The translations under genes and the position numbers were made by a program. From contig NC_090295.1 of assembly GCF_037392515.1 (NCBI RefSeq), forward strand, positions 21,778,001 through 21,842,000: 64,000 nt of DNA, in the 5' to 3' direction. Source of the stretch: Haliotis asinina. Its lineage: Eukaryota > Mollusca > Gastropoda > Lepetellida > Haliotidae. Below the pieces are notes generated by a model. It was not told where the DNA came from. It worked only from the letters and a program-made list of their open reading frames with translations, and did not search any database. Shown here piece after piece: positions 2,004 to 56,200 of the stretch (its first letter is position 1; each line of letters starts with the position of its first letter).

Positions 2004-5000
2004 ATAGATGCATAACACAGGGTGAACATGTAGGGCTCTCTATTTCATTACACAAGGTGAACATGTGCTGCTCTGTCTTGCCCCAAAAAGGGTGAACATA
2101 TAAGTCTCTCTACTGCACCACCAATGGTGAACATGTGGGGCTCTCTATTGCCCCAAACAAGGTGACCATGTGGGGCTTTCTTTTTGCATTACACAGGGTG
2201 AACATGTGGGGCTCTCAGTTGTATTACATAGGGTGAACATGTTGGGCTCTCTATTGCATTACCCAGGGTGAATATGTGGGGCTCTCTATTGCCCCACATA
2301 GGGTGAATGTGTGGGGCTCTGTTTTGCATTACACAGGGTGAACATGTGGGGTTCTCAGTTGCATTACACAGGGTGATCATTGGGTTCTCTCTACTGCATT
2401 ACACAGGTGAACATGTCGGGGCTCTCAGTTGCCCCAGACATGGTGAACACGTGGGGCTCTCTATTGCCTCAAATATGGTTAACATGTTTGACTCTCTATT
2501 GCCTCACACAGGGTGAACATGTGGGACTCTCAGTTGGATTAGACAAGGAGAACATGTGGGGCTCTCTATTGAATCACACAGGGTGAACATGTGGGGCTCT
2601 CTATTGAATCACACAGGGTGAACATGTGGGGCCCTCTATTGCCCTAGACATGGTGAACATGTGGGGCTGTCTATTGCATTACACAGGTTGAAGATTTGGG
2701 TCTCTCAGTGTCCCCAGACGGGGTGAACATGTGGGGCTCTCTATTGCTCCACACAGGGTGAACATGTGAGACACAGGGTGAACACGTGGGGTTCTCTATT
2801 GCATTACAAAGGGTGATCATGTGGGGTGCTCTGTTGTCCCAAACATGGTGAACATGTGGGGCTCTCTATTGCCCCACACAGGGTGAACATGTGGGGCTCT
2901 CTATTGCCCCAAACATGGTGAACATGTGGGGCTCTCTATTGCATATCACAGGGTGAGCATGTAGGGCTCTCTATTGCCCCAAACATGGTGAACATGTGGG
3001 GCTCTCTATTGCCCCACACAGGATGAACATGTGGGGCTCTCTATTTCATTATGCAGGATAAACATTTGGGACTCGCAATCGCATTACACAGGGTGAACAT
3101 GTGGGGCTTTTATTTGCATTACACAGGGTGATCATGTGGGGCTCTCTATTGCCCCACACGGGGTGAACATATGGGGCTCTCTATTTCATTACGCATGATA
3201 AACATTTGGGACTCGCAATCGCATTACACAGGGTGAACATGTGGGGCTTTTATTTGCATTACACAGGGTGATCATGTGGGGCTCTCTATTGCCCCACACG
3301 GGGTGAACATGAAGGGCTATTTTTTGCATTACATAGGGTGAACATTTGTGGGTCTCAGTTGCATTACACAGGGTGATCATTTGGGGTTCTCTATTGCATT
3401 ACACAGGGTGAACATGTAGTGGCTATCAGTTGCCCCAAATAAGGTGAACATGTAGGGGTCTTTTTGCATTACACAGGGTGAACATGTGGGGCTCCCTATT
3501 GCCCCACACAGGGTGAACATATGGGGCTGTCTATTTCATTACGCATGATGAACATTTGGGACTCGCAATCGCATTACACAGGGTGAACATGGGCTCTCAA
3601 TTGGATTCGACATGGTGAACATGTGGGGCTCTCTATTGCCTCACACAGGGTGAACATGTGGGGCTCTCTATTGCATTACACAGGATGAATATGTGGTGCT
3701 GTCTATTGCATTACACAGGGTGAACATTTAGGGGCTCTTCATTGCATTACACAGGGTGAGCATGTATTGCTCTCTATTGCCCCAAACATGGTGAACATGT
3801 GGGGCTCTCTATTGCCCCACACAGGGTGTACATGTGAGACTCTCAGTTGCATTATAAAGGGTGGACATGTGGGGGTCTCTATTGGATTAGACAGGGTGAA
3901 CATGTGGGGCTCTCAATTGGATTAGACAGGGTAAACATGTGGGGCTCTCTATTGCCTCACACAGGGTGAACATGTGGGACTCTCTATTGCATTTATACAG
4001 GATGAATATGTGGTGCTGTCTATTGCATTACACAGGGTGAACATTTAGGGGCTCTTCATTGCATTACACAGGGTGAGCATGTATTGCTCTCTATTGCCCC
4101 AAACATGGTGAACATGTGGGGCTCTCTATTGCCCCACACAGGGTGTACATGTGAGACTCTCAGTTGCATTATAAAGGGTGGACATGTGGGGGTCTCTATT
4201 GGATTAGACAGGGTGAACATGTGGGGCTCTCAATTGGATTAGACAGGGTAAACATGTGGGGCTCTCTATTGCCTCACACAGGGTGAACATGTGGGACTCT
4301 CTATTGCATTTATACAGGATGAATATGTGGGGCTGTCTATTGCATTACACAGGGTGAACATGTGGGGCTCCCTATTGCCCCACACAGGGTGAACATATGG
4401 AGCTCTCTATTGTGCATGGTGAACATTTAAGACTGAATTGCATTACACAGGGTGAACATGGGCTCTCAATTGGATTCGACACGGTGAACATGTGGGGCTC
4501 TCTATTGCCTCACACAGGGTGAACATGTGGGGCTCTCTATTGCATTACACAGGATGAATATGTGGTGCTGTCTATTGCATTACACAGGCTGAATATTTAG
4601 GGGCTCTTCATTGCATTACACAGGGTGAGCATGTATTGCTCTCTATTGCCCCAGACACGGTGAACATGTGGGGCTCTCTATTGCCCCACACAGGGTGTAC
4701 ATGTGAGACTCTCAGTTGCATTACAAAGGGTGGACATGTGGGGGTCTCTATTGGATTAGACAGGGTGAACATGTGGGGCTCTCAATTGGATTAGACAGGG
4801 TAAACATGTGGGGCTCTCTATTGCCTCACACAGGGTGAACATGTGGGACTCTCTATTGCATTTATGCAGGATGAATATGTGGGGCTGTCTATTGCATTAC
4901 ACAGGGTGAACATGTGAGACTCTCAGTTGCATTACACAGGGTGAACATGTGGGGGTCTCTATTGGATTAGACAGGGTAAACATGTGGGGCTCTCTATTGC

Positions 5001-7150
5001 CTCACACAGGGTGAACATGTGGGACTCTCTGTTGCATTTATACAGGATGAATATGTGGGGCTGTCTATTGCATTACACAGGGTGAACATGTGAGACACAG
5101 GGTGAAGACATAGGGTTCTCTATTGCATTACAAAGGGAGGACATGTGGGGTGCTCTATTGCCCCAAACATGGTGAACATGTGGGGCTCTCTATTGCCCCA
5201 CACAGGGTGAACATGTGGGGCTCTCTATTTCATTACGCAGGATAAACATTTGGGACTCGCAATCGCATTACACAGGGTGAACATGTGGGGCTTTTATTTG
5301 CATTACACAGGGTGAACATTTGTGGCTCTCAGTTGCATTACACAGGGTGATCATTTGGGGTTCTCTATTGCATTACACAGGGTGAACATGTAGGGGCTAT
5401 CAGTTGCCCCAAATAAGGTGAACATGTAGGGGTCTTTTTGCATTACACAGGGTGAACATGTGGGGCTCCCTATTGCCTCACACAGGGTGAACATGCGGGG
5501 TCCTCTATTGCCCTAGACATTGTGAACATGTGGGGCTCTCTATTGCCCCACACAGGGTGAACATGTGGGGCTGTCTATTGCATTACACAGGGTGAAGATT
5601 TGGGTCTCTCAGTGTCCCCAGATGAGGTGAACATGTGGGGCTCTCTATTGCTCCACACAGGGTGAACATGTGAGACACAGGGTGAACATGTGGGGTTCTC
5701 TATTGCATTACAAAGGGAGGACATGTGGGGTGCTCTATTGCCCCAAACATGGTGAACATGTGGGGCTCTCTATTGCCCCACACAGGGTGAACATGTGGGG
5801 CTCTCTATTGCCCCAAACATGGTGAACATGTGGGGCTCTCTATTGCCCCACACAGGGTGAACATGTGGGGCTCTCTATTGCCCCAAACATGGTGAACATG
5901 TGGGGCTCTCTATTGCCCCACACAGGGTGAACATGTGGGGCTCTCTATTTCATTACGCAGGATAAACATTTGGGACTCGCAATCGCATTACACAGGGTGA
6001 ACATGTGGGGCTTTTATTTGCATTACACAGGGTGATCATGTGGGGCTCTCTATTGCCCCACACGGGGTGAACATGAGGGGCTCTCTATTGCATTTACACA
6101 GGATGAATATGTGGGGCTGTCTATTGCATTACACAGGGTGAACATGTAGAGACTCTTTATTACATTACATAGGGTGAACATCTTGGGCTCTCTATAGCAT
6201 TACACAGGATGAACATTTGGGGCTCTCTATTGCATTACACAGGTGAACATTTGGGGCTCTCAGTTGCCCCAGACAAGGTGAAGATGTGGAGGTCTTTTTG
6301 CACTACACAGGGTGAACATGTGGGGCTCTGTTTTGCATTACACAGGGTGAACATGTGGGGCTCTCTACTGCCCAACACATTGTGAACATGAGAGGCTGCT
6401 TTTTTGCATAGGGTGAACATGTGGGGCTCTCTATTGCCCCACACAGAGTGAACGGGTGGGGCTCTGTTTTGCATTTCACAGGTGAACATGTGGGGCTATC
6501 TACTGCCCAACACAGGGTGAACATGAGAGGCTGTTTTTTTGCAGTACACAGGGTGAACATTTGGGGCTCTCTATTGCATTACACAGGTGAACATGTAGGG
6601 GCTCTCAGTTGGTGAAGACAAGGTGAACGTGTGGGCTCTCTTTGCATTACACAGGATGAATGTGAGGCTCTCTGTTGCATTACACAGGATAACTTTGTGG
6701 GGCTGTCTATTGTTTTACACAGGTTGAACATGTAGGGGCTCTTCATTGCATTACACAGGGTGAGCATGTGGGGCTCTGTATTGCCCCACATAGGGTGAAC
6801 ATGTGGGGCTCTCTATTGCCCCACACAGTGAACATGTGGGGCTCTCTATTGCCCCAGACAAGGTGAACATATGGGACCCTCTGTTGCATTACAAAGGGTG
6901 AACATGTGGGGCTCTCTATTGCATTAGACAGGGTGAACATGTTTGGCTATCTATTGCATCATGACATTACAGAGGTTCAACATTTGGTGCTCTCATTTGC
7001 ATCACAGAGGGTGAACAAGTGGGGCTCTTATTTGCATTACACAGGGTGAACATGTGGGAATCTCTATTACATTACACAGGGTGAACATCTGGGACTCTTT
7101 ACTGCCCCACACAGTGTGAACATGTGGGGCACTTTATTACATTACGTAGG
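2004..7150. repeat. 35-bp minisatellite array (about 5.1 kb)
   Basis: The 35-bp unit is a variant of GGTGAACATGTGGGGCTCTC followed by TATTGCATTACACAG or TATTGCCCCACACAG, with roughly 145 copies. Higher-order structure is visible: a block marked by GGATGAATATGTGGTGCTG followed by GAACATTTAGGGGCTC recurs near 3690, 4007 and (diverged) 4551, so multi-unit blocks of about 315 bp were duplicated. Short open frames in both strands are a by-product of the repeat. Confidence 0.95.
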
Positions 7151-16416: not shown

Positions 16417-19400
16417 ATGGCAGCCTCCACAGCGAAGAAAGAAGGCAGTATGTTTTCAATAAAGTATTTTAAGCGATTCATCTTTGATCCAGATTCTTCG
16501 TGGCTGATTATGATTCTTCTACTTCTGGCCGAGGTTGCTGTCAATTTTGTCGTCATTAACAAAATCAGATGTAAGTACAAACATCAGAAGTGTCAATGTC
16601 AAGCCGGTAGTTCGATTTTCGATCACCAAATGGTCACGTTGTCTGGCTGGTATTTTTCGCCTCATTCGACAGAAATGCAAGCATGACATCGACGAATGAG
16701 TACACGGGGCATAGAAAACAACGGTGTGCGTATGTTTACGATGATTCACTCTCAACAAGGAGATACATGAATTTAATCGGGTTGGATTCTCAGAGTTGTT
16801 ACCAGTTCTTTGAGCTAAAAAGTCTCTGAAACGCCAGATGGGAAGTGATATTTTATGTTTGACATTGAACACGGACTTGTGGCAGCAATCCCCTGAACTC
16901 TTGCGCAGAAAGTTATTTTCGTATGAATGTCTACCACTGTCTACTGATCCAAAACAGGTCAACTCAGTCATCCCTAATTTTAAGCGATGTGTACTGGCGT
17001 CTCCTATTCTCGTGGTACTTACGGATATCGGCTGAAAAAATAATATAAACGGTTCTTTTCGTATGTATGCTTGTTGTTTTTAAATGAAGAGATTCCCTCT
17101 GCATCTATCAACTGCTTGATCCATCAGGTGTACTATTGCACTTGAGCTCGATGAAAAACTTGGTTGTCCGCTGCTGACTTTACAAGGCGTCTCCCACTCT
17201 CGCAGCATAACAAGAAAGTAACGTGATTAGGGGTAAGGAAGGGAAAATGTTGCGATTTTTCCAATTTGGTTTACGAATATTCGTTACATTGCAAAATTCT
17301 GATAATTCACAGACTTAGGCCACTTCCAAGTTACCGGCCAATGATGTAAACAACTGCTAAGTATCATGCATCGGCGATATCGACAGAAAATGTGTTTACC
17401 GCAAAAATAGGAGACGACCCTATATTACTTACTGTGCTTAGTTCTAATATGCTTCATGAATCCTTGGTAAGGCATGCATATTATGGTGTTATTGTAGCAG
17501 GGAACAGTTATTGTTCATATTTCATGAGCAAAGGTTAAGTGCATGCTGTACTTTTTTGAACGGTCAATCCTAAATAAAATCAGGCATGGTGTTTATGTTT
17601 CAGACACAGAAATTGACTGGATTGCGTACATGCAGGAAGTTGGAGGTGTCTTGAATGGCACATATGACTACATGAAGCTGAAAGGGGACACAGGACCACT
17701 TGTGTAATTATGCTGATACAAAACATGATATACCTGTGTGTTTTTTTATTTCAGTGATGGGAAAGATGGGGTGGAGGGTGGCTCAAATATTAAGTGTGGG
17801 TGCAAAGCGATCTACTACACCAATAATTAACAATAACAAGATACAAAGTATATCAAGGATTTAATCAAATAATAGCTTTGTCTGATGAAACCTGTTGACC
17901 AAGCACAAAATGCAACAAGAATTGTAAAGAAATTGTGGTACTGCAGGGTCCAATTGATATAAATTCTAACCTACACATACACATTTTGAAAGAGTGAACA
18001 AGTTTTCATTCAGTAAATAGCGAAAAGCTCGGGATATTAGGTCAGGTATTTTTTATGTTACAGATACCCAGCAGGGTTTGTATACATCTACAGCTTGTTC
18101 TACCATGTGACTGAGAAGGGCACTGACCTCAAAACTGGACAGTACATCTTCGCTGCCTTATATATGCTGACACTACTTGTTGTCTTTGATATCTACAGAC
18201 ACACAAGAAAGGTCAGTTGCAGTAATAATGTATTTCCCATTTATCACCCTGCTCCTCTCCAATGAGCAAGAAACTTGCATGGTATTTATAAAGAAATGTT
18301 TACAACAGACGAACTTGTAGTCTCTGAATGTATATGATTCTAATAGAAACAAATATTTCAATTTATTGAACACACAACTTTATCGTGTTTATGGATTACA
18401 ACTTCTTGTTCATTATGTCGAGTGATGTTTCGATGTAGATTCCTACATCCAAATGGTATCTACAACCAAATGGTGAGAATCTTATAAACATGGTATGTTG
18501 TGACAAACACAACATATGTCATATTTGGGATTTCACTTTCTTTGTAAAGTACAAATTCTAGTACTCTTTCGGTAGAGTCCCATCCGGGACTGTTTGACCC
18601 ATCCACGATGGCTGAGCGGGCAAGGCGGCTGACTTTGTGTGCTGGTGATTAGGTGCCTGACTCTGAGGCTGCGATTTCGAATCCCGGATGGGACTCAACT
18701 GAAAAAAGTACTAGAATTTGTACTTTACTAAGAAAGTGAAATCCCAAATATGGCATATGTTGCATTTGACCACTTTCTAAATGGCACTGTGTAATCATTG
18801 TGACAAACAGCTTATTAACACTGAACAACAGCATTGAAATAGCTCTCATATTTGACTCTCCAACTTCTGCTTAAACAATGTCCTTTCAAATTTAGAAGGA
18901 AGTCCCGTAAGACAGGAGATTTCAGAACATAAGGAAATTTAGACTTGCTTCATTTATAGTTTGGCATGAATGCATATGGACTCATTTTTTTTGTAAACTG
19001 ACTTTCCTGACACCACACTGCCGCTGTTACAGGTCATTGGCTCCCTCCCTCTGCAAGCAGTCTGTGTTCTGCTGTTCATTTTGTTGACCGTTACATAGAC
19101 AGATTCTTTCATACAAATGCTTAACGTGGGTGATTTACAATGTTAGGTTTTCTGACAAAACATTCACTTGCAAAGTTTGAGATTGATTGAATCATTGAAT
19201 GAAGAGTTATTTACAATAAAAACGGGTCCACATGCATTTCATGCCAAACTATAGGGTTTCATCATTGCAAAAAGGACTAGGTGGGAAGGGGATGCAGGGC
19301 ATAAGATTATTCCACTGCTTGTGTCAAGTTTTGTCTTCCAGGTGCCTCCATACATGTATGTGTTCATGTGCTGCACATCGTACAGGATACACTCTATCTT

Positions 19401-22400
19401 CATCCTGCGACTTTTCAATGATCCGGTTGCCATGCTGTTGTTATACGTTGCTGTGGCCCTCTTCCTTCGTGATCACTGGATGCTGGGCTGCTTCTTTTAC
19501 AGGTGAGGACAACTAACGGGAGTAGGTGGCTTGCTGACTTGGTTGAGACATTTTATTGTATCCCAGTCGCGTAGATCGACGATCATGCTGTTGTTCACTG
19601 GACTGTCAAGTCAAGACTCGGTTATTAACAGAATGATGTCATATAGCTAAATACTGCAGAGTGCAGTGTTAAACAAGCAACAGATGTTATCAGATTCTCT
19701 TTCATCTGCACTTTATGTGATATTTGAATTCTTTTTCAATGTCCAAGATGACACAGTTATTTTCCTTTAAAATTACAAAGATCCTAATACCAGATTTGTT
19801 TAGCTGTGTTCCCATCTTTGGTTTTGCATGTGTTTTCACAGCCTTGGTGTGTCTGTAAAGATGAATCTGTTGCTGTTTGCGCCAGCTGTCTTCTTGCTGC
19901 TCATGGTCCGACATGGAACGCTGGGTACTATTCTTCGTCTCGCTATATGTGCTGTCACTCAGGTACGTCTGTATCTGGTTTGTATGTTAACACCTGAATC
20001 TTTTGCTGTGTTAACACCTGTTTCTCAGGTTAGTGTTAAGAACTGTTTCTTAAACCGTGTTAATAGCTGCGTTACAACAATGTTCATATCTGCTTTCTGT
20101 ATATTGATAACATCCGGATTGTGCACAATGATAGCTCCTTGTTTTGGAACAGTAATAACTGGTTCGTATACATTGTTTTTACAGCTGGTTTATATGATAA
20201 CATCTGGCTTGTGTGTAATCTGTATACATGGTTTCAGTTAGATGATAATGCCTCGTTTCTATACTGAACGGCAAAAGAAAGGCAACTCTGTTTTATCGCT
20301 AAATGTTCAAACAAAAAACCTTGTCAATCATTGAATGTATAGCATCAAACAAACATGGTGGATCAGGGTGCAGTGAATTACAAATACACCAAGTTCTTAT
20401 AATCTGTTTCAGCTGTTACTTGGCTTCCCATTTCTGAAGGAGAATCCAGTCGGATATATAAGCAGAGCATTTGATCTGGGCAGACAGTTTTTCTTCAAAT
20501 GGACAGTAAACTGGAGGTTTCTCCCAGAAGAAATATTTCTGAACCGAAATTTTCATGTGGCGCTGTTGGCTGCCCATGTGATACTGTTGCTGGTGTTCTT
20601 CCTTGTTAAGTGGAGAAAGTGAGTGAAATAGTACCAGTGACCATTGATGTAATTGATATGCTTTGTCTGATATCTCAGGCCTGATGGAACAAGTGAAGAT
20701 CCCTGCTAGAATTGGTCTTCAGTAACCCATGCTTGGCGCAAGAGGCAACTAACAGGATTGTGTGGTCAGTTTGACTGACGTGGTTGACAAATGTCTTCGT
20801 ATCCCAGTTGCGAAGATCGATGTTCATTCTGTTGATCACTGGATCGTCTGGTCCAGACTTGATTATTTTACAGGCAACGGCCATATAGCTGGAATATTGC
20901 TATGTGCAGTGTTAAATAACCAACCAACCACATATTTAGGGAGATTGTTAAAATGTTTTGCTTTCTTTTTCAGGCTATTCCCAAGTACTGTATTCGGCTT
21001 CTTCATGAAAAATAGGACAAGAAATTTTTCTGCAGATCATATCCTTTTGCCCTGTTGATGCTCAGTATGCTTACATTTATGGTGGTACAGGTCCCATCTG
21101 AATGGACAGTAAAGAGTTACCTCCCTTAGACATATCACAAACCTGTCACCATGGAGTAGAACCCAGACTTTCCCTGCTTGCTTCTATACATGCTTTAAAC
21201 AGCTGAACCTTAATTTAATTTAGATTTTCTTCTAACATCAGTTGGAGTGGTGCCTAATGATTAGAGTGTCTGCTCATCACACTGAAGACATGTGTTTGAT
21301 TCCCCACATGGTTGCAAAGTGTGAAGCACATTTCTGGAGTTGCTCAGCTGTGATACTGCTGGATTATTGCTAAAATTGGCATCAAACCATTCTCACTCAC
21401 TCCAACATCAGTCTATGACATAATTATTGTAACAAGTGAGGCAAAACTGACTTTCCCACTCTCTAACATCAGTAGTTTTCACTGACCATCTTCTAAAGCT
21501 GGAAGTTTGGAGCTCTACAAATCCATATCATTATGATTATGTATTGTTATTTTTCCCTTAACTGTGTCCACAGATTTTATTGCCCCTTTTCACAGCTAAC
21601 TTCATAGGCGTGAGTTTTAGTCGCTCCCTCCACTATCAGTTTTATGTGTGGTACTTCCATACTCTACACTACCTTCTGTGTTCTACATCATTACCAGGTG
21701 TCGTACGGTAAGTCTTTGGGACTGTTGGTGATTGGTAGTTTAGTCTTAGAGATCATTCATAATTTATGTATATTGTCCTCACAAAGATGACATAAAGATC
21801 TGTATGCATTTATAAATCTTCATTCCTCTTGTTGACAATGTTATAATAAATCACTATGAATAGCGTTGAAAGTACTATGCATACTTATAGCCATACAAAC
21901 CCTGGAGTATGGGCAATGTTGAACATATGCTTTCACATGGAGCAGATGACTAGAAGGGAGGTCACTCTAACATGAGGTGTAATTAGTGAACTTAACATAA
22001 AGTGAATGAAGCCCTCATAAAGGATAGCAATGAGACCATGATGGGGAGCTACAGCCACGTCAGAATGGAACACAAAGGCATATAATTAATAGATGCAAAA
22101 TAACTAAGTGACCCTCAGTGGGGCACCACATATGGCTAGGGGGATTGTGATGACTTTTATGGAGAAGCAAGTACAATGTGAATGACTCCCTCTAAAATTT
22201 ATGTTAAAAGCAAGTGACCCCACCTGCATGTACAATATTAGTGTCCCTTCCCTCCCTCACAACCTCCCATAATTTTGAAATATTTTCATATGCAAAATTT
22301 CTGACCATCCGTAGTTTATAAGTACAAAACTGATGGCCCCACCACCTCCCTAAAATGTGTGAACCCCTCCTTAAAATCATTTTCACTCCCACAGGTCATA

Positions 22401-22760
22401 AATATGGACATGCATGGTCCCACTGAGTGGTCCTCATTTATTCACTACATGGGTTTAATGTCTGTGGACAATTTCTGGTGTTCCCCACCATGATGATGCT
22501 GGAATATTGCTAAATGCAATATATAATAAAACTCTCTCACTCTTTTCATCTTGTTTTGCATTCGTTTAAAACACGTTTAAATTTCGTTTGAGTTCTTTAA
22601 ACTCATTTCTATCTGCAGGATCTTGGTGCTTGGTCTGATTGAGCTGTGTTGGAACACCTACCCCTCCACAGTTCTGAGCAGCGCCACCTTGCATTGCTGT
22701 CACGCCGTCGTCCTTTGCGGACTTTTGTTAAACTCATGCTCGGACAAGAAAACGGAATAA
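16417..22760 (+). CDS. ALG3: ALG3, dolichyl-P-mannose:Man5GlcNAc2-PP-dolichol alpha-1,3-mannosyltransferase
   Basis: This ER membrane enzyme (GT58 family) adds the first dolichyl-phosphate-mannose-derived mannose to Man5GlcNAc2-PP-dolichol in N-glycan precursor assembly. Exons: 16417-16570, 17604-17703, 18064-18211, 19342-19502, 19842-19962, 20413-20618, 20974-21038, 21572-21707, 22619-22760. All phases agree, giving 1233 nt and 410 aa (human ALG3 is about 438). Recognisable stretches are [13 protein letters not shown] (from residue 52) with [70 protein letters not shown] and [16 protein letters not shown]. Many hydrophobic segments fit a multipass protein, and the C-terminus KKTE fits a KKXX ER-retrieval signal. 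Intron 7 is AT-AC (own entry). AATAAA overlaps the stop codon (22756-22761), but I cannot say whether it is used. Start chosen because MAAST precedes the first membrane segment in a continuous frame. Confidence 0.95.
18510..18762. mobile_element. Fold-back element with tRNA-like core
   Basis: Arms of about 80 bp (18510-18590 and 18683-18762) are inverted copies: CATATTTGGGATTTCACTTT pairs with AAAGTGAAATCCCAAATATG, and GTCCCATCCGGGA with TCCCGGATGGGAC. The core at about 18602-18692 has an A-box TGGCTGAGCGGGC, a long variable region and a B-box-like TTCGAATCCC, as in a class II (Leu/Ser-type) tRNA. Related copies lie at 28,128 and 50,009. The outer end GACCACTTTCTAAATGGCAC at 18770 recurs inverted in both. 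Confidence 0.75.
19506..19680 (+). mobile_element. SINE family B, 5'-truncated, touching the ALG3 exon 4 donor
   Basis: SINE sequence starts within a few bases of the splice donor GTGAGG (19503): ACTAACGGGAG, TTGCTGACTTGGTTGAGACA, CCCAGTCGCGTAGATCGACG, CACTGGACTGTCAAGTCAAG, GACTCGGTTATT, then a tail with GCAGTGTTAAAC. The copy is diverged relative to that at 52,993. Confidence 0.75.
19963..20240. repeat. About 24-bp degenerate tandem repeat at the ALG3 intron 5 donor
   Basis: GTTAACACCTG-type motifs recur at 19986, 20010, 20035 and 20059 (spacing 24-25). Looser versions (TTGATAACATCCGGATTG, TGATAACATCTGGCTTG) continue to about 20,240. The array starts at the exon 5 donor GTACGT. Confidence 0.6.
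20683..20935 (+). mobile_element. SINE family B in ALG3 intron 6
   Basis: A nearly complete copy: AACCCATGCTTGGCGCAAGA, GGCAACTAACAGGATTG, CCCAGTTGCGAAGATCGATG, GATCACTGGATCGTCTGGTC, GGCCATATAGCTGGAATATT and a tail of GTGCAGTGTTAAATAACCA. Confidence 0.85.
21039..21571 (+). other. U12-type AT-AC intron (ALG3 intron 7)
   Basis: The 5' end is ATATCCTT, the textbook 5' splice site of AT-AC U12 introns. The 3' end is CTGTGTCCAC, with CCCTTAAC as branch-site candidate about 10 bases before the final AC, inside the spacing usual for U12 introns. No GT donor within exon 7 keeps the frame. Joining at AT...AC gives GATC plus AGATT, that is, D-Q-I, restoring [12 protein letters not shown], which corresponds to NQI..LFTSNF in the human enzyme as I remember it. 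Confidence 0.88.
21243..21405 (+). mobile_element. SINE family A inside ALG3 intron 7
   Basis: GGAGTGGTGCCTAATGATTA, TGTTTGATTCCCCACATGG, GTGTGAAGCACATTTCTGG, GGATTATTGCTAAAATTGGC and CATCAAACCATTCTCACTCA give the family-A order in a diverged copy. Confidence 0.8.
22110..22425 (-). mobile_element. GGGACC-type MITE, second copy
   Basis: Read on the minus strand, it begins near GGGACCATGCATGTCC and contains AGTCATTCACATTGTACTTG followed by CTTCTCCATAAAAGTCATCA. These match the element at 48,177-48,741 (AGTCATTCACATTTTACATG, CTTCTCAATAAACATGATCA). It lies in ALG3 intron 8, and the far terminus is unclear. Confidence 0.65.
22440..22545 (+). mobile_element. SINE family A, 3' fragment
   Basis: CACTACATGGGTTTAATGTC, TTCTGGTGTTCCCCACCATG, ATGCTGGAATATTGCTAAAT and a short ACTCTCTCACTC tail. 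Confidence 0.7.
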
Positions 22761-44200: not shown

Positions 44201-47200
44201 CGACAGAGATATCAAGGGATTCAAAAATCAGTTTTCATTTCGAGCAATCAAATAATAGTATCTTACTTGCCCGTGGGCTGCTTCAGACTGCAAATAAACC
44301 TGGATTTCATTTCATATCTGCTCAAAATATAGATATTAAATTTCACAATGCTAATTTAGTAGAGTTACCTTTCTTTCCTATTTATCACTTCTCAATAAAT
44401 AGTCCAATAAACATTGACATCAAGTATTATGTTGATTAGTTCTTTCATAATTACAACATCATGATTATGTCATAAAAGTCAGGAAAATTAGTCAGGGAAA
44501 GCTATTTTCTTAAAGTCACTTGAACTGTTGGTATCAAAGTGGGATGATGATTGTACCCGAGTAATGATTGTTACAGAACTAAGATCTCATTGTTGAAGAG
44601 GAACTCAGTGTTTTTAATAATGGCTGATGTGTTGTTCAGATGAAGGTGAGTTATGGCAGACATGTTGTTCAGACGATTGTGTTGTGAGTAATGACTGATG
44701 TTTGGTCAGACGAATGCTTTGTGAGTAATCATCAGGCTACATGTTGTTCAAATGAATGTTATGCCATTAATGAGTGATGTGTTGTTCAGACGGACCTGAA
44801 GCTGGCGCGGGAGTTGGAGGAGAAGCTCCGACAGTCCCAGTCGGAGGAGATGAAGGAGGTGGAGAACTACGTGGAACATATCCGCCACCTGTCAGATGAG
44901 AGAGAGGCTCTAATACAGGAACTGGAGGGCGAGAACGAGGCTCTCAAGCTGGAGGTGGAACAAATCAAGGCCAGTGAGAGTAAGTTGGAATCAGGGGCAT
45001 TTATTCTTTCAGCTGATGTAATTGTATATTACTGATAACCGTATTTCCACTTAATGGGCGACACAATATAAGTGGTGGTACTCAAGTAAGTGTCGGGGGT
45101 AAAACAGTGGTTTAAAAAATATGCACTGAGCCTCTAATAAGAGCCGGGTATGTTTTTTAAATGAATTGTTCCTTGATTTGATAGCAGATATACTAAGGAA
45201 TGGTTTCTTTACTCCTAACATCATGTCCTCCACATGGCATGGGCTGATGGATAGTATAAATTGTTCACTGGTCTTGATGGGAGAATGGGTTCAGGTACCC
45301 TTGATGTTTGTTTATGTTCACTGAGGCTGAAGGGCAATGGGAACATGAACAAACATCGAGAATACCTCAACTTATGGCCCCCGAGTGACCAGTGAACAAC
45401 ATATTTTCTTGCTGAACACCTCAATGTTAATTTTGAACTGTTTGAAGCATGGGTATCAGACCGTACACTTTAGCCAGTCTGTGTGAATCAAACGATTCTT
45501 GCATCTTGCTGTTTTTTCATGTAGGTATTGTCTTAGTAAAGTCGCCGTGATGTAATTCCCCTTCTTAATATTCACAGGGACAACATTTGAACTCTTTGTC
45601 AAAATTTATTTATTGGAATGTGAGGCAATTTTTTTCGTAACCATTGCTAGATATGGCAGACGACACAAAAACAGATTTACAGTTGTCTATTTCCATCGAT
45701 TTGCATTCGTAATGCACCAGTAAACTCTGTGCATCATGAGTGATGCAATGTTAATATTGTTATTCACGATAACTGCCATGAAGTACCAAATGAGTTGCTA
45801 TTGGCAGCAGGGTGTCTTGCAATACTTATGAATGTACTAGAATGTATCAATGTTCTGATATTTGCAGAAATATTTTTGTGATTCTCAATGCTGATTATTT
45901 ATTTGAAGCGACATGACATGACATTGGTTCATTGTTGAGAACAGTACAGTATGGAATCATCCATTACCCCTCCCACAAAGTGATTGTAGCAATGTGATGA
46001 CTGTAACTCCCTGGTACTTTATCGTAAGGTTACAACTATCACTTCCTTCTGGAATATGATTCTTGCATCTTCTGAGTTTCTCTTTATGGTTGAAATTACA
46101 CGTTTTTCCTCCATTTTCTTTCGAAGACTGACACAGAGTGTAATTTAATGTGAATCATGAAATGTTAATATATCACCAAATTAAAGCCGTTCTTAATATC
46201 TGGTACAAATGTGTGATGAAATTATGCAAAGCTTTATACCAAGACTTTAAATTTAGAATCTCATGATAAAGCTGAGGTGACATTAGTTAAATGATGGACA
46301 AGGGGCATTAGGGTAGCTTGATAGTTAAAGCATCACCGCGTCACACAGAAGATCCAGTTTCAATTCCCCCAAAGAGTACAATGTGTGAAGTGTATTTGAT
46401 AGTTTATGTTGTTTCCTTCTCAATGATTTTGCTGTAATATTGCTAAAAATGGCTTCACACCATGCTCACAATTTGGACAATGCTACTTGCTATCCCTGTC
46501 GCTGATACTGACCCATTTGTAACAAAACTTCATTTGTTTGCTGACCTCATGTGCGTGTGTTAAATGTATGCAGTACAAGACTCATATTCTACAACTTTAG
46601 ATGGATGTCACTATTAGATCTCATTCTTGCTTCATCAGGCGATGAGATTCGGAAAGAAACAGCAGAGATGCTTTCACAGCAGGGTCTGGATGAGATTGCC
46701 AAGGCAACAAGCAGTGAACAGATTGCCTTCCTTCTGGTGGAGCGAGCAAAGCTATTGGACGAGTTGGAAGCAGAGCAGAATAACAGCCAATCGGGGGACA
46801 AGCATTCAGAGGAGCTGAAGAAGATCCTGGAACGAGAACGTGACGACTTCGAGGAGGAGATGCAGCAACTGCGACAACAGGAGAACCGGGTACGGAGTGC
46901 ACTGAAACATGAACATGAAGAGGAGATCGGAGCTCTCATGGAGGAGAACGCCAAGCTGGAGGATGACCTTAGTGCTTCAAAGGAAAAGGTGGAAAATTTG
47001 TTGCAGTGTTTTCTTGATTCATCCAGTTCAGATGCTTTTCTTACTTTGTTTAATGATTTTTTTTGTAACAAAGGGAGGGAAGTGGGAATGCTAAACATGA
47101 AGTTATTAAGGATGCCAACCAAATTACATCGGTCATTGATCATTGGAACAAGTGACTGGCATGTCAGTGTTGTTTTAACCCTGCTCTCAGCAATTATTCA

Positions 47201-50200
47201 GCTAAGTGGCAGCAGTGTGTTAAGAATCAAGCCTGGACCAGACAATACAGTGATTGACTCTATGAGCATCAATCTAACTTACAGAGACAGGTTGCATTAG
47301 GTTTGAGTGATAACTTAGGATGACATATATGACAACTAACATTGTTGTTTACCGAATAAACAAGTCACAGGAATTTATGTTATCATATTTCAAATTATTG
47401 GTATTGAAGAATTTCCAAATCAGATGTTTAAAGATGTGGAAGGAGACATAATAATATAGAATAATATAAGGAGAAAGTGTTTTTTAATTGTCAAGGTGCC
47501 ATGGTAGTAAAGTCACATATTCTGAAACTGTCTTTAACACAGCTAAAGGAGCTTGAAGCTGAGATCAACAGACTCACTGACGACCTTGAGAATGAACACA
47601 ACCTGCGACAGAGTGAACGAGAAGAACGTGATGAAGAGAGAAGGAAGGAGAAGGAAGATAGAGAGAAGGAAAGACAAAAGGACAAAGAATCCCTCATGGA
47701 AAGTAAGTTAAAAAGGGCAGATGGTTGTTTCCGTCTTATTGGAAACTGACAGACCAAAAATTGTCTCAGTGATTCATAACAGTTTTCTCATATTATTTTG
47801 AACATGGACTCTGTAAGGCAGAGTGGGGTAGGGTTGGGTAGCGTGGGTGATACACAATGATTTTAAAAGCATTTTAATTTAATAAGAGTTGTTGGTTCTT
47901 TCTGTCTATTTTCAAAGAGGTCAAAAACTGTTTCATTACAGTTTATCTAATATTGTGGTGGGATAGGTGTATGAGACACCATGTCTTTTTTTGAAGCCAG
48001 CACCATACATTTAGTTTCCTCTTTACAGAACATCTATGCATGTCCCAAAATGAGGACAAATAATAGCAATGAACGTTTATCACTAAAAATATATGGACTT
48101 GAAATGCAATGACAGTGATGTTTAAAGTTGATTTTTCAATAACAAGTCAATAAATGCTTCAGGGTTTGTGAAATTAGGGACCGTTCATAATTTATGGCTT
48201 GGAGGTGATGATGATGATGATGATTAAGATTGGGTTCTGGGGAGTGTGGGCAATAATTTTGTACACATACCAGGTGGTGTCACCCATTTTGTACATTATG
48301 AAGAAAATGTTAGACTGGGTAAAGCTCCATGTGATGTGCTTGAAGTCAGAAATGGCCGTTATTTATGACTGTGTGCCAAGAAATTTGGGGATCACATTTT
48401 TAATTCACAGGTGTTTCGATTGAAGGTATATAAACTGATAAAAAGATTATATATTCAGAAAACTGAAAATTAGAGCATTCAATGCATAATTCATATGATG
48501 CGTAAATCCGACTTGTTGAAAAATTATTGCAAGTTTCATTTGGAGATGTCATTATCCTGCACTCCAGTCAAATGGGTTCGACAGTAGCATTGAGAGGATT
48601 TAGAAACATGGGAGTCGGGAAGGTCAGAGATGGGGCATTGATTTTGTGCATGGCATGAATTTTCTGGGGAGTCATTCACATTTTACATGCTTCTCAATAA
48701 ACATGATCATCATCCCCTTATCATTAATTATGAACAGTCCCTTAGTTAAATATATGTAAACAGATGGAGGAAAGATTTCTACCTTCATTGAGAAGCATTT
48801 AGAAGTTGGTTCAATGGGAAGGATGACAATTTACGGATAAACAGCTTATTACAGTGAGAACTCATCTTCATCCATCTTCATCCATCTTTGAAAGATTTCT
48901 TGTTTTTAATTTATCCTGTCTTCCTTGGAGCATCTATGAAAATGACGACGACAAACCAGCCAAGGCGTGCTGAGAGTTGAATGTTGCTAAAGAGCAGAAA
49001 GATTACCTGAAGCGCCACTGAATGTTAAATATCTTGCCCAAATAGTAAAATTTAACCTTGCAAAACACGGAACTTACACATGGTCTCATTGGTTATGTTT
49101 CTCTATGAGATTACAATGCACTTAGTTTTGTTTCCCTACCAGGTCCACGGCCACAAAGAGGCGGGTTAACGCGGTCAGCGAGTGATGTGTCTTTAAGGCG
49201 AATAATAGAGGAGAAGACTAAAATTGAGGGAGAAATTATCCCCCTTCGGAGCAAGATACGCAGCATGGAGACGGAAATCATCAAGAAAGATGAGGAAGTA
49301 AGTTTGTTTCCTGCATATTTCACTCTTTGCTCATTATTAATTACTTACCTCGGATGTAGCGATGGGCTTTGTTTTTTTTACTTCTAGACCTGGATCTGGC
49401 AAGAAGTCTGTAAGACTTTGGGCTGTGGTTAAAGGGTTGGCTTTTTAAAGTAAAGTTCTGGTTTGATTCTCCATATAATTACAGCAGATTTCAGTCCATT
49501 TCTGGTGGTCTCTACTGTTATATTGCTGGAATATTGCTTCGAATGCTATGAAACCATACTCACGCACTGAAGGATGAAATTTAAGTGAGCCTTCAAAAGT
49601 AAACAAAATAGAGGATTTGTCAGTTTTCACCCAATCAGATGCCAGCTTTCTAAAACAGTGTGGTTTTATGCCAGTAACAACACGTTATCAGATATTTTAA
49701 CACAAATTGTAAGGGAAAAGTGTCATGAGAATTGTTATAGACCAGGCTCGTTCAACTGTTGACAAATATTGCCGATGTGACGTTAAATATTAACTCACTA
49801 ACTCAACTCTTGACAGTGTGTGAAGTCCATTTTTGATTCAAACCATCTTTGTCATAGTGGTGCACCCAGTCGCTAGCACACAAACTCAGCAATGTAACCC
49901 ACTGAGCCTCACAAACATGGAATCAGACAAAGTCCCTATCCCATGGTCTTTGTGTACCCATCTGACATGTATAAATTGGCATGGTACCTATTCCTGAAAG
50001 CCTGAAACACACAATGGCATGTAGAAAGTGGTCAAATGTAACATATGAAATATTCAGGATTACATTTTCCCAGGTTTTTTTTGTCTTTTCTAGAATATGC
50101 CTACTAAGTTACTGAGAGAGTGTATTATCCTACGTATAATGTTACATTTGACTTTTTCCTAACTGGCTTTGTGTATTCTTTCATTGGGCTGACTACTAAA

Positions 50201-53200
50201 TCTGTTTGTTGTTTAGCTGAAGAAGATGAAGAATGAAATGGATAAGGGGTTGATGCAGCAGCAGCAGCTCCAGCTGAAGAACAAGAACCTGCGAGCTGAG
50301 GTGGAGGATCTGGAACAACAGCTGGATGAGGCAGAGGTAAGAGAGGGAGGGTGAAGTAACAGCTGAATGAGGATGGGGTGAGAAGGGAAGGGTAAAGTGG
50401 CAGTTTGACAAGGTAGAGATAGACAGGGAGGGTGAAGTAACAGCTAAATGAGGATGGGCTGAGAAGGGAAGGGTAAAGTGGCAGTTTGACAAGGTAGATA
50501 TAGACAGGGAGGGTGAAGTAAAAGCTGAAAGAGGCAATTGCAAGACACTGAGGGTGAAGTACTAGTTTATCATGAAGCTGAGGCAAGGCAGGGAGGATGA
50601 AGCAACAGCTGGATGAAAATGAGGTGAGACAGAGTGAGGTCTCAACTGGATTGTTGGCCAGAGGTAAGACAGGGAGGAAGACATAACATCTGGAGGAGGC
50701 AGTGGTACTATTATCACAGGGAGGAGGATGTAAGAGCTTCTTGAAGCTGACATAGGACAGGGAGGGTAAAATTCCAAATTCAAATTAAATATTTACTATT
50801 GTGTTTGCACAAAACACTTCAGTCAGCAAACTCCGATTCATCGCTAATGACCATGAGGGACAAAATGACATACGGTTGTATTTATAGAAAGGAAATTTCA
50901 GGTTTCCTTAGTAAACTGTCTAATGGAGTGATTGATCCATTACTTAAAACATGTTAAACAACCTAGTGATGTAGAGCTCTGGTTTTGAAGTGTTTCTGTT
51001 TATTCCTAGTCAAGTGTTGAGAAGCTCTCAGCCAACAACGAGGAACTGTCAACGAAGTTTTCAGCTTTACAAGAGGAGGTGAAAGTACTGAGAACAGAGT
51101 CTCAGAAGGCCTCCACACTCCAAGATGTTGTGGACATTCTTAAGAATGACAAACAGACAATCACAGACCAGATGGCAACCTTGAAGAAAGACCTTGCTGA
51201 AGCTCAGGCTGAAAGGGAGGATTTATCCAAACAAAATACATTGCTGGAAAAGAAGGAAGACGAACTGACCAATCACATAGACTCTCTTAAACAGACAATA
51301 GAATTAGCCAATGAGGAGAGAGTAAAGATGTGTAGGGACAAGGATGATCTTCTTGCCTCCAGGGAAGAACAGGAGGGTCAACTGAGGTCACTCCATAAGG
51401 AGCTGGAAGAACTGAAGGTTGATAAGAGTTCTCTGAGCGAGAATACAGAGTCTATGACAAAGGAGAACAAAGAACTGACCAATCAGATAGCCCAGCTTCA
51501 GGAGGAGATTAAGAAAAGTCAGCTCACACATAGTCAAGAACTTGCCAAACAAGAGGTGTGTTTTTAGACTTTTAGAAAAATATACTGAGTGGGTTCAATT
51601 TTACTAGTATTTCTTGAGGTGATGTTAAATTAGGTTTGATATCATGCAGCAGAAGTACAGTGTAATTCACTACATCCACTACATTCATCCACTACAAAGG
51701 CATTCAGGATTATTTGGCAGGATAACGATATGCTTGCATGAATTTTTTGTGTGTGTCTGCTTGCTCCAGTACCTTTGCTGGTTCACTGGGATACCATACG
51801 GCATGGATATCCGGAACCAAGACATTTTCATTAAGGTGCACGGGATGGTGGGGTAGCCTTGTGGTTAATTAGCTTATCATACTGAAGACCAGGGTTCGAT
51901 TGCCCACATGGGTTCAATATATGAAGCCCAGTTCGGGTGTCCCCATGTTGCTGGAATACCGTTAAAAGTGGCGTAAAACTAAACTCACCCACTCACTTAC
52001 TCCCTCCCTTACTCTCTTAGCATATTGGGGCAACACGATCGAAAATGATTATTACGAAAGTTGTCTCATCCATTCAATCCATCCAATGTACCAACTTCAA
52101 AATGCCACAAAGACTTCATTGCAGAATTTTAAATATGTTTACCAGATTATTTCGTCTCACATGCGAGATCAAAACCAGAAATTGACTAGTCAATTGTCAG
52201 AGGTCCAGGCAGAACTCAACGAGACCAGAGTCAATGAAAACACACTTCTACAAACACAGGTTGGTCCTTGTCGTCATCATCATGCAGGGATCGATCACAC
52301 CAGTTTGATTGTTTCTCCATGTCCTGACTCATGCTTATTGCTTACCTTTCTCTTTTTGATGGTTTATTGTAAAATTTGATTCCCTTTCAATTCCCTGAAG
52401 CAATCAGAATATCACTCACCATAAGTTGCCTCCCTTCCCCCACCAAAACGGTCCCATGTGACCTGAGCCTAGCACTCATAATGATTTGCCAACCAAAATG
52501 TTTTCACTATCTGACAAGTTGTGCTGTGTTAAGAAAACATTGAACTGTTTTCCATGATTACTGATGAGGACCGATTGATTTGGAAGAAACTGATAATGAA
52601 CAATGATGATAAACTCATTGTGTGTCTTTCTTTCTTTCAGAAGTCACTTATGAGTTCAAATGATGAGCTGGAAAAGAAGTAAGTGCATAAGGTCTTTCTG
52701 ATATTTTTGTCCTGGACTGAATAAACTTTACCTAGAGGTTACCTGTATTGTGAGTGTGGGAGTGAGTGAGTGAGTGAGTTTGCTATATTGCAGTGGTCTG
52801 TAAATAATAGAGTCTGGACCAGGTAATCAAGTGATCAACAGCATGAGCATCTATCTCTGCAGTTTGGGTACAATGATATGTGTGAACCCAGTCAGCAAGC
52901 CTGACTAGCTGATCCCGTTAGTCTCTCTTTTAATAAGTATGGGTTACTGAAGATCAATTCTAATGCCATGATATTTCAGTAAGTACAGTCAACCCGTGAA
53001 TGTCCAGGGTAGAATAGGCCTTTAGCAACCCATGCTTGCTTTATATTTTTTCATAAAAGGCGCCCCAGCTTGTCATAACAGGTGACTAATGGGATTGACA
53101 CATGTCATCGGTTCCCAATTGCGTAGATTGATGCTCATGCTGTTGATCACTGGATTATCTGGTCCAGCCTCGATTATTCACAGACCACCACCATATAGCT

Positions 53201-56200
53201 GGAATGTTGCTGAGTGTGACATAAAACTAAACTCACTCACTCAATAAGTACAGTCAAGACTCATTAATCAGACATCATCTGTTGCACCGCAAATTGTTGG
53301 ATTAACGAGGATGTCAGACCAAATAATTGAGACTAAATTATGTTTATTCAATTTGTTACCAACAAAAGCGTCGGATAAAGCTGTTTGTCTGAAACGGAGT
53401 TTGGATTAACGAGACTTGCGGGTTTGTTGCAAAAATGCCGCATAACGATAGTCACTCATTCCATGTACTTAAGGTATAAGCTGGAGATGGATGACATCAC
53501 CGCCAAGTTGCAGATGACTCTGTCGGAGCTGACTAAGACACGGACCAACCTTGAACGTGAACATTTAGAGAAAACTTCACTCTCCGACCAACTGTCTTCG
53601 TCGGAGATCCGAATCCAGGAACTGACCCAGCTCAGGGCATCACTTGAACAGGAACGAAAATCAAAATCAGATTTAGAGGCGAAAGTTCAGGAAACTGAGA
53701 TGAAGTTAGCAGAACGGACAATGGTTGCGGATGGGTTTGAGGATGAGCGTAAGCAGAGGATTGAGTTAGAACAGAAGGTGTTTGATTATGGCAATTTGGA
53801 GGTCGAACTGACGACAGCCAGAGAGAGACTAGAGCAGGAGAGACGGATGAGGAACGACCTTGAGGCCAAGGTCCTGGATTTGGAGCAGATTCTGGATGAC
53901 CTGCGGATGGACAATGAGAATTTGCAGCACACAATGGGCAACAAGGTGGGTTCCTGGTAGTATCTTTAAACTTACAGTAAACCATGGGCATTAGATAGGT
54001 ACCTGGTGGTGTCTTCAAATTGTAGTTCACCATGGGCAACAGGGTGGGCACCTGCAGGTATCTTCAAACTCGTAGCTCACCATGGGCAACAAGGTGGGTT
54101 CCTGGTAGTATCTTTAAACTTACAGTAAACCATGGGCATTAGATAGGTACCTGGTGGTGTCTTCAAATTGTAGTTCACCATGGGCAACAGGGTGGGCACC
54201 TGCAGGTATCTTCAAACTCGTAGCTCACCATGGGCAACAAGGTGGGTTCCTGGTAGTATCTTTAAACTTACAGTAAACCATGGGCATTAGATAGGTACCT
54301 GGTGGTGTCTTCAAATTGTAGTTCACCATGGGCAACAGGGTGGGCACCTGCAGGTATCTTCAAACTCGTAGCTCACCATGGGCAACAGGGTGGGTACCTG
54401 GTAGTATGGTCATATCTGCAGCACTTCATGAATTATGTTAGCCTGTGTGAGCCCTTTAACACTTTTCCTTCAAAAATGTTCCATAAAAACATCTATATCT
54501 TAAACGCTTTCTTCAAGTCACATGGCCATTATGTTGTCAGGTGAAGTCCTTAGAGAACCGTGTCAGAGCACTGCAGGACGACCTCTTCACAGCACAAGAT
54601 GAGCTGCAGATAGCACAGGAGAAGTATGAACAGGTAGGACGCCTGAAACTCTGGTTGCCATAGAAATAGACAAGCTTAGTTATTCCATAGCTGTTTTGAT
54701 TATGACTGTGTAAGTAGAGGCTATGTTTACATAACCAGTACATGTGAATTGTTAAGAACAGACAAATGAACAAATCAACATTTTGCAGGCAGCAGCAGAG
54801 TTGGAGGCATCAAAGGTGGAGTCGAAGATCCAGCAAGAGACACTGTCCCAGCTGCAAAAGATGTCTTCGGCGCCAGCGCCACCAAACCAGATCAACACCA
54901 ATGGCCACAACCAGCCCAAGTCACAGGACCTTGTGGATGGTGACAACCGTACCAATGATAGTTCCAAAGATGTTTCTGTGAGTGTATCCATTTTTTGTGG
55001 AACAGTGAGGCTGAAATGGATAACCACCAAGTTTGCCCCAACAACTGTGCTATATATCTTCATTTCCAAAATTCCTGAAGGATAAACTTATGAAACTTCC
55101 TGCTTTGTGACTATAACCAAATTGTCTTCTAAAATATACATGTCTTTTCATGGTTTATTTTTGGGTTTGAATTGCAGTCCATCTGTTTCAACTGAGGTCT
55201 TTCCTGTAGTGTCTTTGAGAGTCAAATACAAAAGATTGTAAAGACTTTTGTGATCCACTGAAAATGTCAAATTCTATAGTCACAAAATCTTAAGGATGTT
55301 GGTGTGAGATGGTGTGTCTTCTTTACACATATAAGCTCATTAGACTTCAGGCATGACTAAATATATCAGTGTGGCTAGGATGAGTTGAACATACCTGTCT
55401 GGCCTTGTTAGGAGATCATGATTAAAAAATGTTGAACCCAGCCGTTTACATTTCTTCAGGAACTTGAGACAAGCCTGGAACTCTCCAACGCCAAGCTGCA
55501 GGAGACGTTTGGTGCACTGCAGACGTCCTCCAACAAGGTGAGTCAGCTGCAGCAAGAACTCAGGGCATCCAATGAGACGCTGCAGCAGCTGGAACAAGAC
55601 TTCCATCATGCGGAGAAGTCCCTTGAAAAAACTGAAACCCAACTTGCTGAGGCAAAGAGAGAACTCTCCCAAGTGTTGAGTTCTCGTGATGAAGGAGAGG
55701 TTCGAGTGAAGGAGTTGAAAGAGAAGGTTGAGGCTGTGACTCGTGAACGGGATGGGTGTAAGCGGGAGGTTGAGCTTGCAAAGACAGCCAATCAGTATGG
55801 TGCAGAGGAGAGACAGAAGCATCTTGACAGGATAAAAACTGCAGAGGAAATCTCGCGACAGCTGGAGCTTGATAATAGAGAGATGGCCAAGAAGGTAGGA
55901 CTGTTTATGGGTAAAAAGGTAGTACAGATAAAGTTTTAGAAATCTGACATCTGATAGAGTTAAGAACCTAGGTGGCCTTCATTTAGAAGGGCTTATCCAC
56001 TGTAACATCTTTTGAACATTTGCACAGAGAGGTATCGTCTGAAAGACCTTGTAGGGCACGACAGTATCAGGATGTGGGCACAACGTTCACTTTTCATTTT
56101 CAAAGATGCAAGATTCATTCCCACAAAGAGGTCATTTTTTGTGTAAATTTTGCTGAAATATTGCTGAAAGTGCATGAATCACTCCATTTGTCACAGAATC

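Follow-up and report, generated by a model that had tools for sequence, protein, structure and literature searches.

The closest described relatives of the intron reported here are the U12-type introns of the AT-AC kind, which start with the donor ATATCCTT, have a branch site similar to TCCTTAAC at 10-15 bases from the end and terminate in AC, as stated in passages of PMC2426677. According to passages of PMC10639083, AT-AC introns make up approximately 26% of human minor introns, the phases of minor introns in animals and plants follow the order 1 > 2 > 0, and molluscs are relatively enriched in minor introns. Therefore, on the account given in these passages, a phase 1 AT-AC minor intron is to be expected in a mollusc gene. 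Passages of another paper name CENATAC as a factor promoting the splicing of minor introns with AT-AN ends, for which they state a relatively high basal retention (PMC8280824).

We found no report linking ALG3 with U12-type or minor introns, or with the minor spliceosome, in the open-licence literature taken without supplements, a scope that does not extend to minor-intron databases. One Arabidopsis paper contains the terms ALG3, U12 and intron; its passages on ALG3 concern readthrough transcripts, not U12 splicing. The one paper listed for abalone together with the minor spliceosome was on a giant virus.

We analyzed a stretch of 64,000 nucleotides from the abalone Haliotis asinina, further called the window, in which the ALG3 gene has an intron 7 with AT-AC ends. 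Like the introns described for the class, it has the donor ATATCCTT, a branch site similar to TCCTTAAC, an AC end and phase 1 (passages of PMC2426677 and PMC10639083). It departs from the standard in that the branch site CCCTTAAC is one letter off, the distance of the branch site from the intron end is close to the lower limit of that range, and a SINE fragment lies inside; no functional difference was seen. With the CENATAC-dependent A-type minor introns, as they appear in passages of PMC8280824, it has AT-AN termini in common.

ALG3 gene of the abalone

The window belongs to an assembly of 1.14 Gb in 159 contigs. The spliced coding sequence of ALG3 had 1233 nt including the stop codon and encoded an intact protein of 410 aa. 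The Pfam ALG3 family (PF05208) matched residues 34-385 with E 2e-142 and a score of 475.3 bits, compared with a cut-off of 23.6, which places the protein among the ALG3 mannosyltransferases. The sole solved structure that matched it was 9s6r_A, a Dol-P-Man:Man5GlcNAc2-PP-Dol mannosyltransferase (E 2.6e-67). Identity with the annotated ALG3 protein of Haliotis cracherodii (P0001) was 92%. Seven of the eight introns had GT-AG ends, and intron 7 was the exception. The coordinates are collected in Table 1.

Table 1. Features of the ALG3 gene and of its intron 7, numbered from the first letter of the window.
Feature	Position	Strand	Remarks
ALG3 gene, coding part	16417..22760	+	nine exons, reading frame open throughout
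Exons 1-5	16417-16570, 17604-17703, 18064-18211, 19342-19502, 19842-19962	+	
Exons 6 and 9	20413-20618, 22619-22760	+	
Exon 7	20974..21038	+	ends ...GCAGATC, phase 1 (GAT C)
Intron 7, AT-AC, U12-type by motifs	21039..21571	+	533 nt, phase 1
Predicted 5' splice site ATATCCTTTT	21039..21048	+	direct reading
Diverged tRNA-like SINE fragment	21272..21408	+	BLAST; intron bases 234-370
Predicted branch site CCCTTAAC	21555..21562	+	motif
Predicted 3' splice site TGTGTCCAC	21563..21571	+	the AG that follows is exonic (exon 8)
Exon 8	21572..21707	+	starts AGATTTTATTG; AGATTTTATTGCCC read as Q-I-L-L-P

A separate observation concerns intron 3 of the same gene, where two 66-base inverted repeats, 92% complementary and 133 bases apart, form a MITE-like element (18504-18768).

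Ends of intron 7

The first-pass annotation, made from the letters of the window, had described the intron as starting with the exact donor consensus and ending in CAC, with a branch-site candidate 10 bases upstream. All three features were present. By direct reading the first letters from 21039 were ATATCCTTTTGCC, so that the donor ATATCCTT stood without any mismatch at 21039-21046, directly at the end of exon 7, as in U12-type introns. The last letters, up to 21571, were GTGTCCAC, with the terminus CCAC. The AC terminus together with a join that keeps the frame agreed with a U12-type AT-AC intron. The branch site CCCTTAAC agreed with TCCTTAAC in 7 of 8 letters and differed from TTCCTTAAC in one position. 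Its candidate branch A, at 21561 or 21560, lay 10-11 nt before the end of the intron, which fits a U12-type branch site at the short end of the 10-15 nt range. We searched both strands of the window for the full consensus TCCTTAAC and found no copy.

Further, we asked how often such motifs occur in the window. The donor octamer ATATCCTT was found once on the forward strand and 6 times on the reverse strand, while 3.5 occurrences were expected from base composition on both strands together. The octamer is thus not rare and by itself proves nothing. However, its single copy on the forward strand fell exactly at the required join. The pattern CCTTAAC, then 4 to 14 bases, then YAC or YAG had a single match in the window, both strands counted, and it lay at the matching acceptor. 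We estimated the chance of a donor and a branch match together at approximately 1e-8 per candidate join (2.7e-5 x 5.2e-5 x ~10 positions), a value computed post hoc. What counts is the exact place of the donor and a branch motif properly spaced from the matching acceptor, a combination which chance would hardly give.

Scoring of possible joins

We tried all joins between exon 7 ends at 20,980-21,299 and exon 8 starts at 21,300-21,699 that left an intron of at least about 30 nt. There were 42,531 frame-compatible joins, which gave 2,105 distinct stop-free proteins. Each protein was scored against a profile of 23 homologues (alignment A1), from which the query and the aberrant models P0036 and P0071 were left out. 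The product of the AT-AC join 21039-21571 obtained the highest score, 711.1 bits. Two other joins, CA-CA 21038-21570 and TA-CA 21040-21572, produce an mRNA identical to that of the AT-AC join, and a TC-CC reading obtained 710.6 bits. The product of the AT-AC join reads ...ADQILLPLF. The ALG3 of H. cracherodii (P0001) reads DQIILPLF and is gap-free across the join, which is consistent with the AT-AC ends.

Apparent traces of the intron in ALG3 proteins from other species

Automatic gene prediction often fails to place AT-AC introns, and its failures are informative. We compared species at the amino-acid level, using protein models only. The set comprised 193 ALG3 proteins, namely the 120 matches listed of 4,200 obtained with the abalone ALG3 as a query and 73 proteins from a second search. 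The query of the second search was the HILL-containing part of the Sinanodonta model, and among the 120 matches listed of 180 there were 73 new ones. Since this query itself contained HILL, the trace counts from the second search are no frequencies.

Among the 120 matches listed of 4,200, 9 had an indel at junction 7, compared with 6 at junction 6, 3 at junction 1, 2 at junction 8 and zero at each of junctions 2-5. In two of the nine models with an indel at junction 7, P0066 and P0069, other junctions were affected as well. Gaps near junctions 6 and 7 may in part be natural, because the loop there is of variable length.

When translation runs on in phase 1 from the last C of exon 7 into ATATCCTTT, it gives H-I-L and then a codon that begins with T (L, S or F among others); C followed by ATATCCT reads H-I-L. 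HIL stood exactly at the junction codon in 9 of the 193 proteins, from three gastropods, one bivalve and five fishes. The mollusc models were Nucella P0011 (LQPLHILA), Sinanodonta P0035 (SPSHILLI), Biomphalaria P0036 (SADHILLT) and Elysia P0071 (GPHHILLK), and these four were the ones found among the 120 matches listed of 4,200. The fish models, obtained with the HILL-containing query, were Periophthalmus P0128 (SVDHILSF), Cirrhinus P0173 (NADHILFM) and the salmonid clusters named Oncorhynchus kisutch P0130, Hucho hucho P0131 and Salmo trutta P0132 (all TSDHILSS). The trace in Nucella is the weakest one, because its fourth place is A and the homologue P0032 has a gap-free H (LQPLHVLLPLF); the H of Nucella may be native.

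The 3' end of the intron seems to have left traces as well. The pattern LNxxSQ, which is the expected translation of CTTAAC-NNNNNN-TCAC followed by the exonic AG, stood directly before the conserved block in 5 models (P0136, Salarias, Takifugu, Sphaeramia and Centroberyx), and it was absent from the search query. In Elysia HILL was followed by SFLNRAVQ, so that apparently both ends of the intron were translated. With Elysia included, the only model in both the donor and the 3' sets, branch-site-like 3' end traces were present in 6 of the 193 proteins. As a background, in the 80,565 residues of these proteins LN..SQ occurred once elsewhere and HIL 12 times elsewhere.

The traces are amino acids, and H-I-L in other species could be coded in another way. 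The models P0011, P0035, P0036, P0071, P0128, P0130-P0132 and P0173 seem to contain translated intron and are likely to be annotation errors at the AT-AC intron. The comparison suggests one AT-AC intron, in the same position and phase, common to molluscs and teleosts.

Minor-spliceosome snRNA genes and pairing

The first-pass annotation had proposed a search for U11 and U12 snRNA genes in the same genome. We found genes of all four minor snRNAs above the Rfam cut-offs in the assembly: nine of U12, three of U11, two of U6atac and one of U4atac. The U12, U11, U6atac and U4atac searches each gave 0 matches in 14 unnamed control genomes. Within the window, the Rfam scan at gathering cut-offs gave no match and thus revealed no known snRNA gene.

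Pairing was possible at both ends of the intron with snRNAs of the same genome. At the donor, a pairing of 8 bp, G-T pairs allowed, is possible between TCCTTTTG (21042-21049) and the first letters of U11, TAAAAGGG, and TCCTTT can pair with AAAGGA of U6atac over 6 bp. At the branch site, CCTTACT, with the second A bulged, can pair with AGTAAGG of U12 over 7 bp. The neighbouring T-rich ATTTTTC, just before the branch site, also pairs with U12 (GGAAAAT), over 7 bp and unbulged. Because a pairing of equal length exists next door, length alone does not single out the branch site, and its pairing with U12 is consistent with the proposed role but not decisive.

Nine U12 genes formed a head-to-tail array with a period of 1134 bases (G000:C15:41926666-41935886, L001-L008). 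Two adjacent units, both in L001, agreed in 1122 of their 1134 bases; another seven copies differed from the L001 copy in 1-2 positions each (the ninth copy was left out of this comparison). On tandem U12 genes in molluscs, the open-licence literature listed nothing but a survey of Arabidopsis splicing genes. The three U11 genes lay in a row, all on the forward strand, with starts 647-707 bases apart (G000:C7:63269449-63270928, L009-L011).

SINE fragment and other repeats of the window

It had also been claimed that a SINE is inserted in intron 7 with both ends undisturbed. The fragment is a diverged copy of a dispersed repeat, is situated at a good distance from either splice site, and we saw nothing that suggests a role for it; the claim holds, with 'family A' being a label of the first-pass annotation itself. 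BLAST gave 10 rows elsewhere in the window with 72-85% identity, some of them pieces of one place. Several copies had a tRNA-like body resembling GGTTYRATTCC, and one contained exactly GGTTCGATTCC.

Other repeats were noted in passing. Long arrays of tandem repeats lie at 2009-7142 and 1-1704: a 35-base unit is present in approximately 148 diverged copies and a 79-base unit in approximately 18 copies, the 79-base array being followed by an apparent reverse complement of itself. Twelve near-perfect copies of a 48-base unit occupy 58285-58863; one frame is open and encodes a repeated 16-residue stretch, and the array is probably non-coding. At 46545-55939 there are several open frames on the forward strand which look coiled-coil-like by eye and may belong, as exons, to a single long coiled-coil gene.

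Discussion

We consider it very likely that intron 7 of ALG3 is a U12-type AT-AC intron which is removed by the minor spliceosome. It was probably inherited and not newly gained; an intron with identical ends, at the same place and in the same phase, seems to exist in teleosts, a bivalve and other gastropods. The basis is the sequence, the frame, the pairing potential and the four snRNA genes; from it we infer splicing in the cell, and from protein models the identity of the intron in the other species. The U12-type AT-AC intron of the first-pass annotation at this place is thus well borne out, as the gene identity, the termini, the phase, the branch distance, the four snRNA genes and the protein traces all fit it. 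To that annotation the analysis adds the trace across species and a set of snRNA genes that matches the intron.

Recognition by U11 precedes that by U6atac in the minor spliceosome. In the proposed course of splicing, U11 and then U6atac would recognise the donor ATATCCTT, U12 would recognise CCCTTAAC with the branch A bulged, and the cut between CCAC and AG would give the product ...ADQILLPLF.

The claim that only the AT-AC join keeps the frame goes too far. The product of this join was the best protein among those of the 42,531 joins, but the join was not unique, as an AT-AG join at 21041-21573 also keeps the frame and obtained 709.5 bits, 1.6 below the AT-AC join, and as the CA-CA and TA-CA joins share its mRNA. 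Frame alone leaves several joins, so the class of the splice sites is deciding. With other non-canonical termini such as this AT-AG pair, the protein would read ADHILLPLF instead of ADQILLPLF, and an H is indeed found gap-free at this column in some homologues, e.g. P0046 and P0084. However, such a donor would begin ATCCTTTT, which lies two bases within the consensus of the minor class, and the exact ATATCCTT would have no explanation. H. cracherodii, the closest relative, has Q in this column. We regard such termini as very improbable. Still less probable, and close to negligible, is the use of a major-class intron with the AT-AC motifs present by coincidence. The stop-free in-frame joins do include 8 GT-AG and 7 GC-AG pairs. 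However, the best of them scored 13-16 bits lower and deleted conserved residues: GC-AG 21032-21573 obtained 697.9 bits with conserved residues lost, and GT-AG 21054-21595 obtained 695.1 bits with part of the conserved block lost. Moreover, a GT-AG reading leaves the HIL and LN traces elsewhere unexplained.

The age of the intron is a matter of its own. It might have been gained within molluscs, with the traces in fishes coincidental, since the fish donor traces came from the HILL-containing query and the comparison with fishes involved proteins only. Against this, HIL occupies this same codon in the five fish models P0128, P0130-P0132 and P0173, and another five models, among them four named fishes, give a branch-site reading that lay outside the query. 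Gap-free counterparts exist too: other models of the same named species, O. kisutch and S. trutta (P0179, P0189), read TSDQMVLILF without an insert, and the trace in the cyprinid Cirrhinus has its gap-free counterpart in a relative (P0193). A gain within molluscs seems very improbable, though somewhat less so than the two alternative sets of splice sites. If the same intron is present in gastropods, a bivalve and teleosts, as the traces suggest, it would have been present in their common ancestor. Intron 7 is an ordinary member of a well-known class, and probably an ancient one.

An origin by duplication was considered in view of a near-repeat, seen by eye, between the start of the intron, CATATCCTTTTGCCC, and the start of exon 8, CAGATTTTATTGCCC. 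Since the intron seems to predate molluscs, we dropped this idea.

One could speculate that the AT-AC form has been kept since before the split of molluscs and vertebrates because slow splicing, limited by the minor spliceosome, serves as a control point in the early assembly of N-glycans. This thought is based on the role of CENATAC and the high basal retention of AT-AN introns as given in passages of PMC8280824, and we hold it to be rather unlikely.

In summary, ALG3 of the abalone, a conserved glycosylation gene, provides a clean AT-AC intron that is probably ancient, and it is at this very intron that public ALG3 models of several animals break. Where an ALG3 protein record shows HIL or LN..SQ directly ahead of the conserved block, an annotation error is therefore likely. 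The trace of the translated intron offers an inexpensive means of tracking minor introns in species for which only proteins are at hand.
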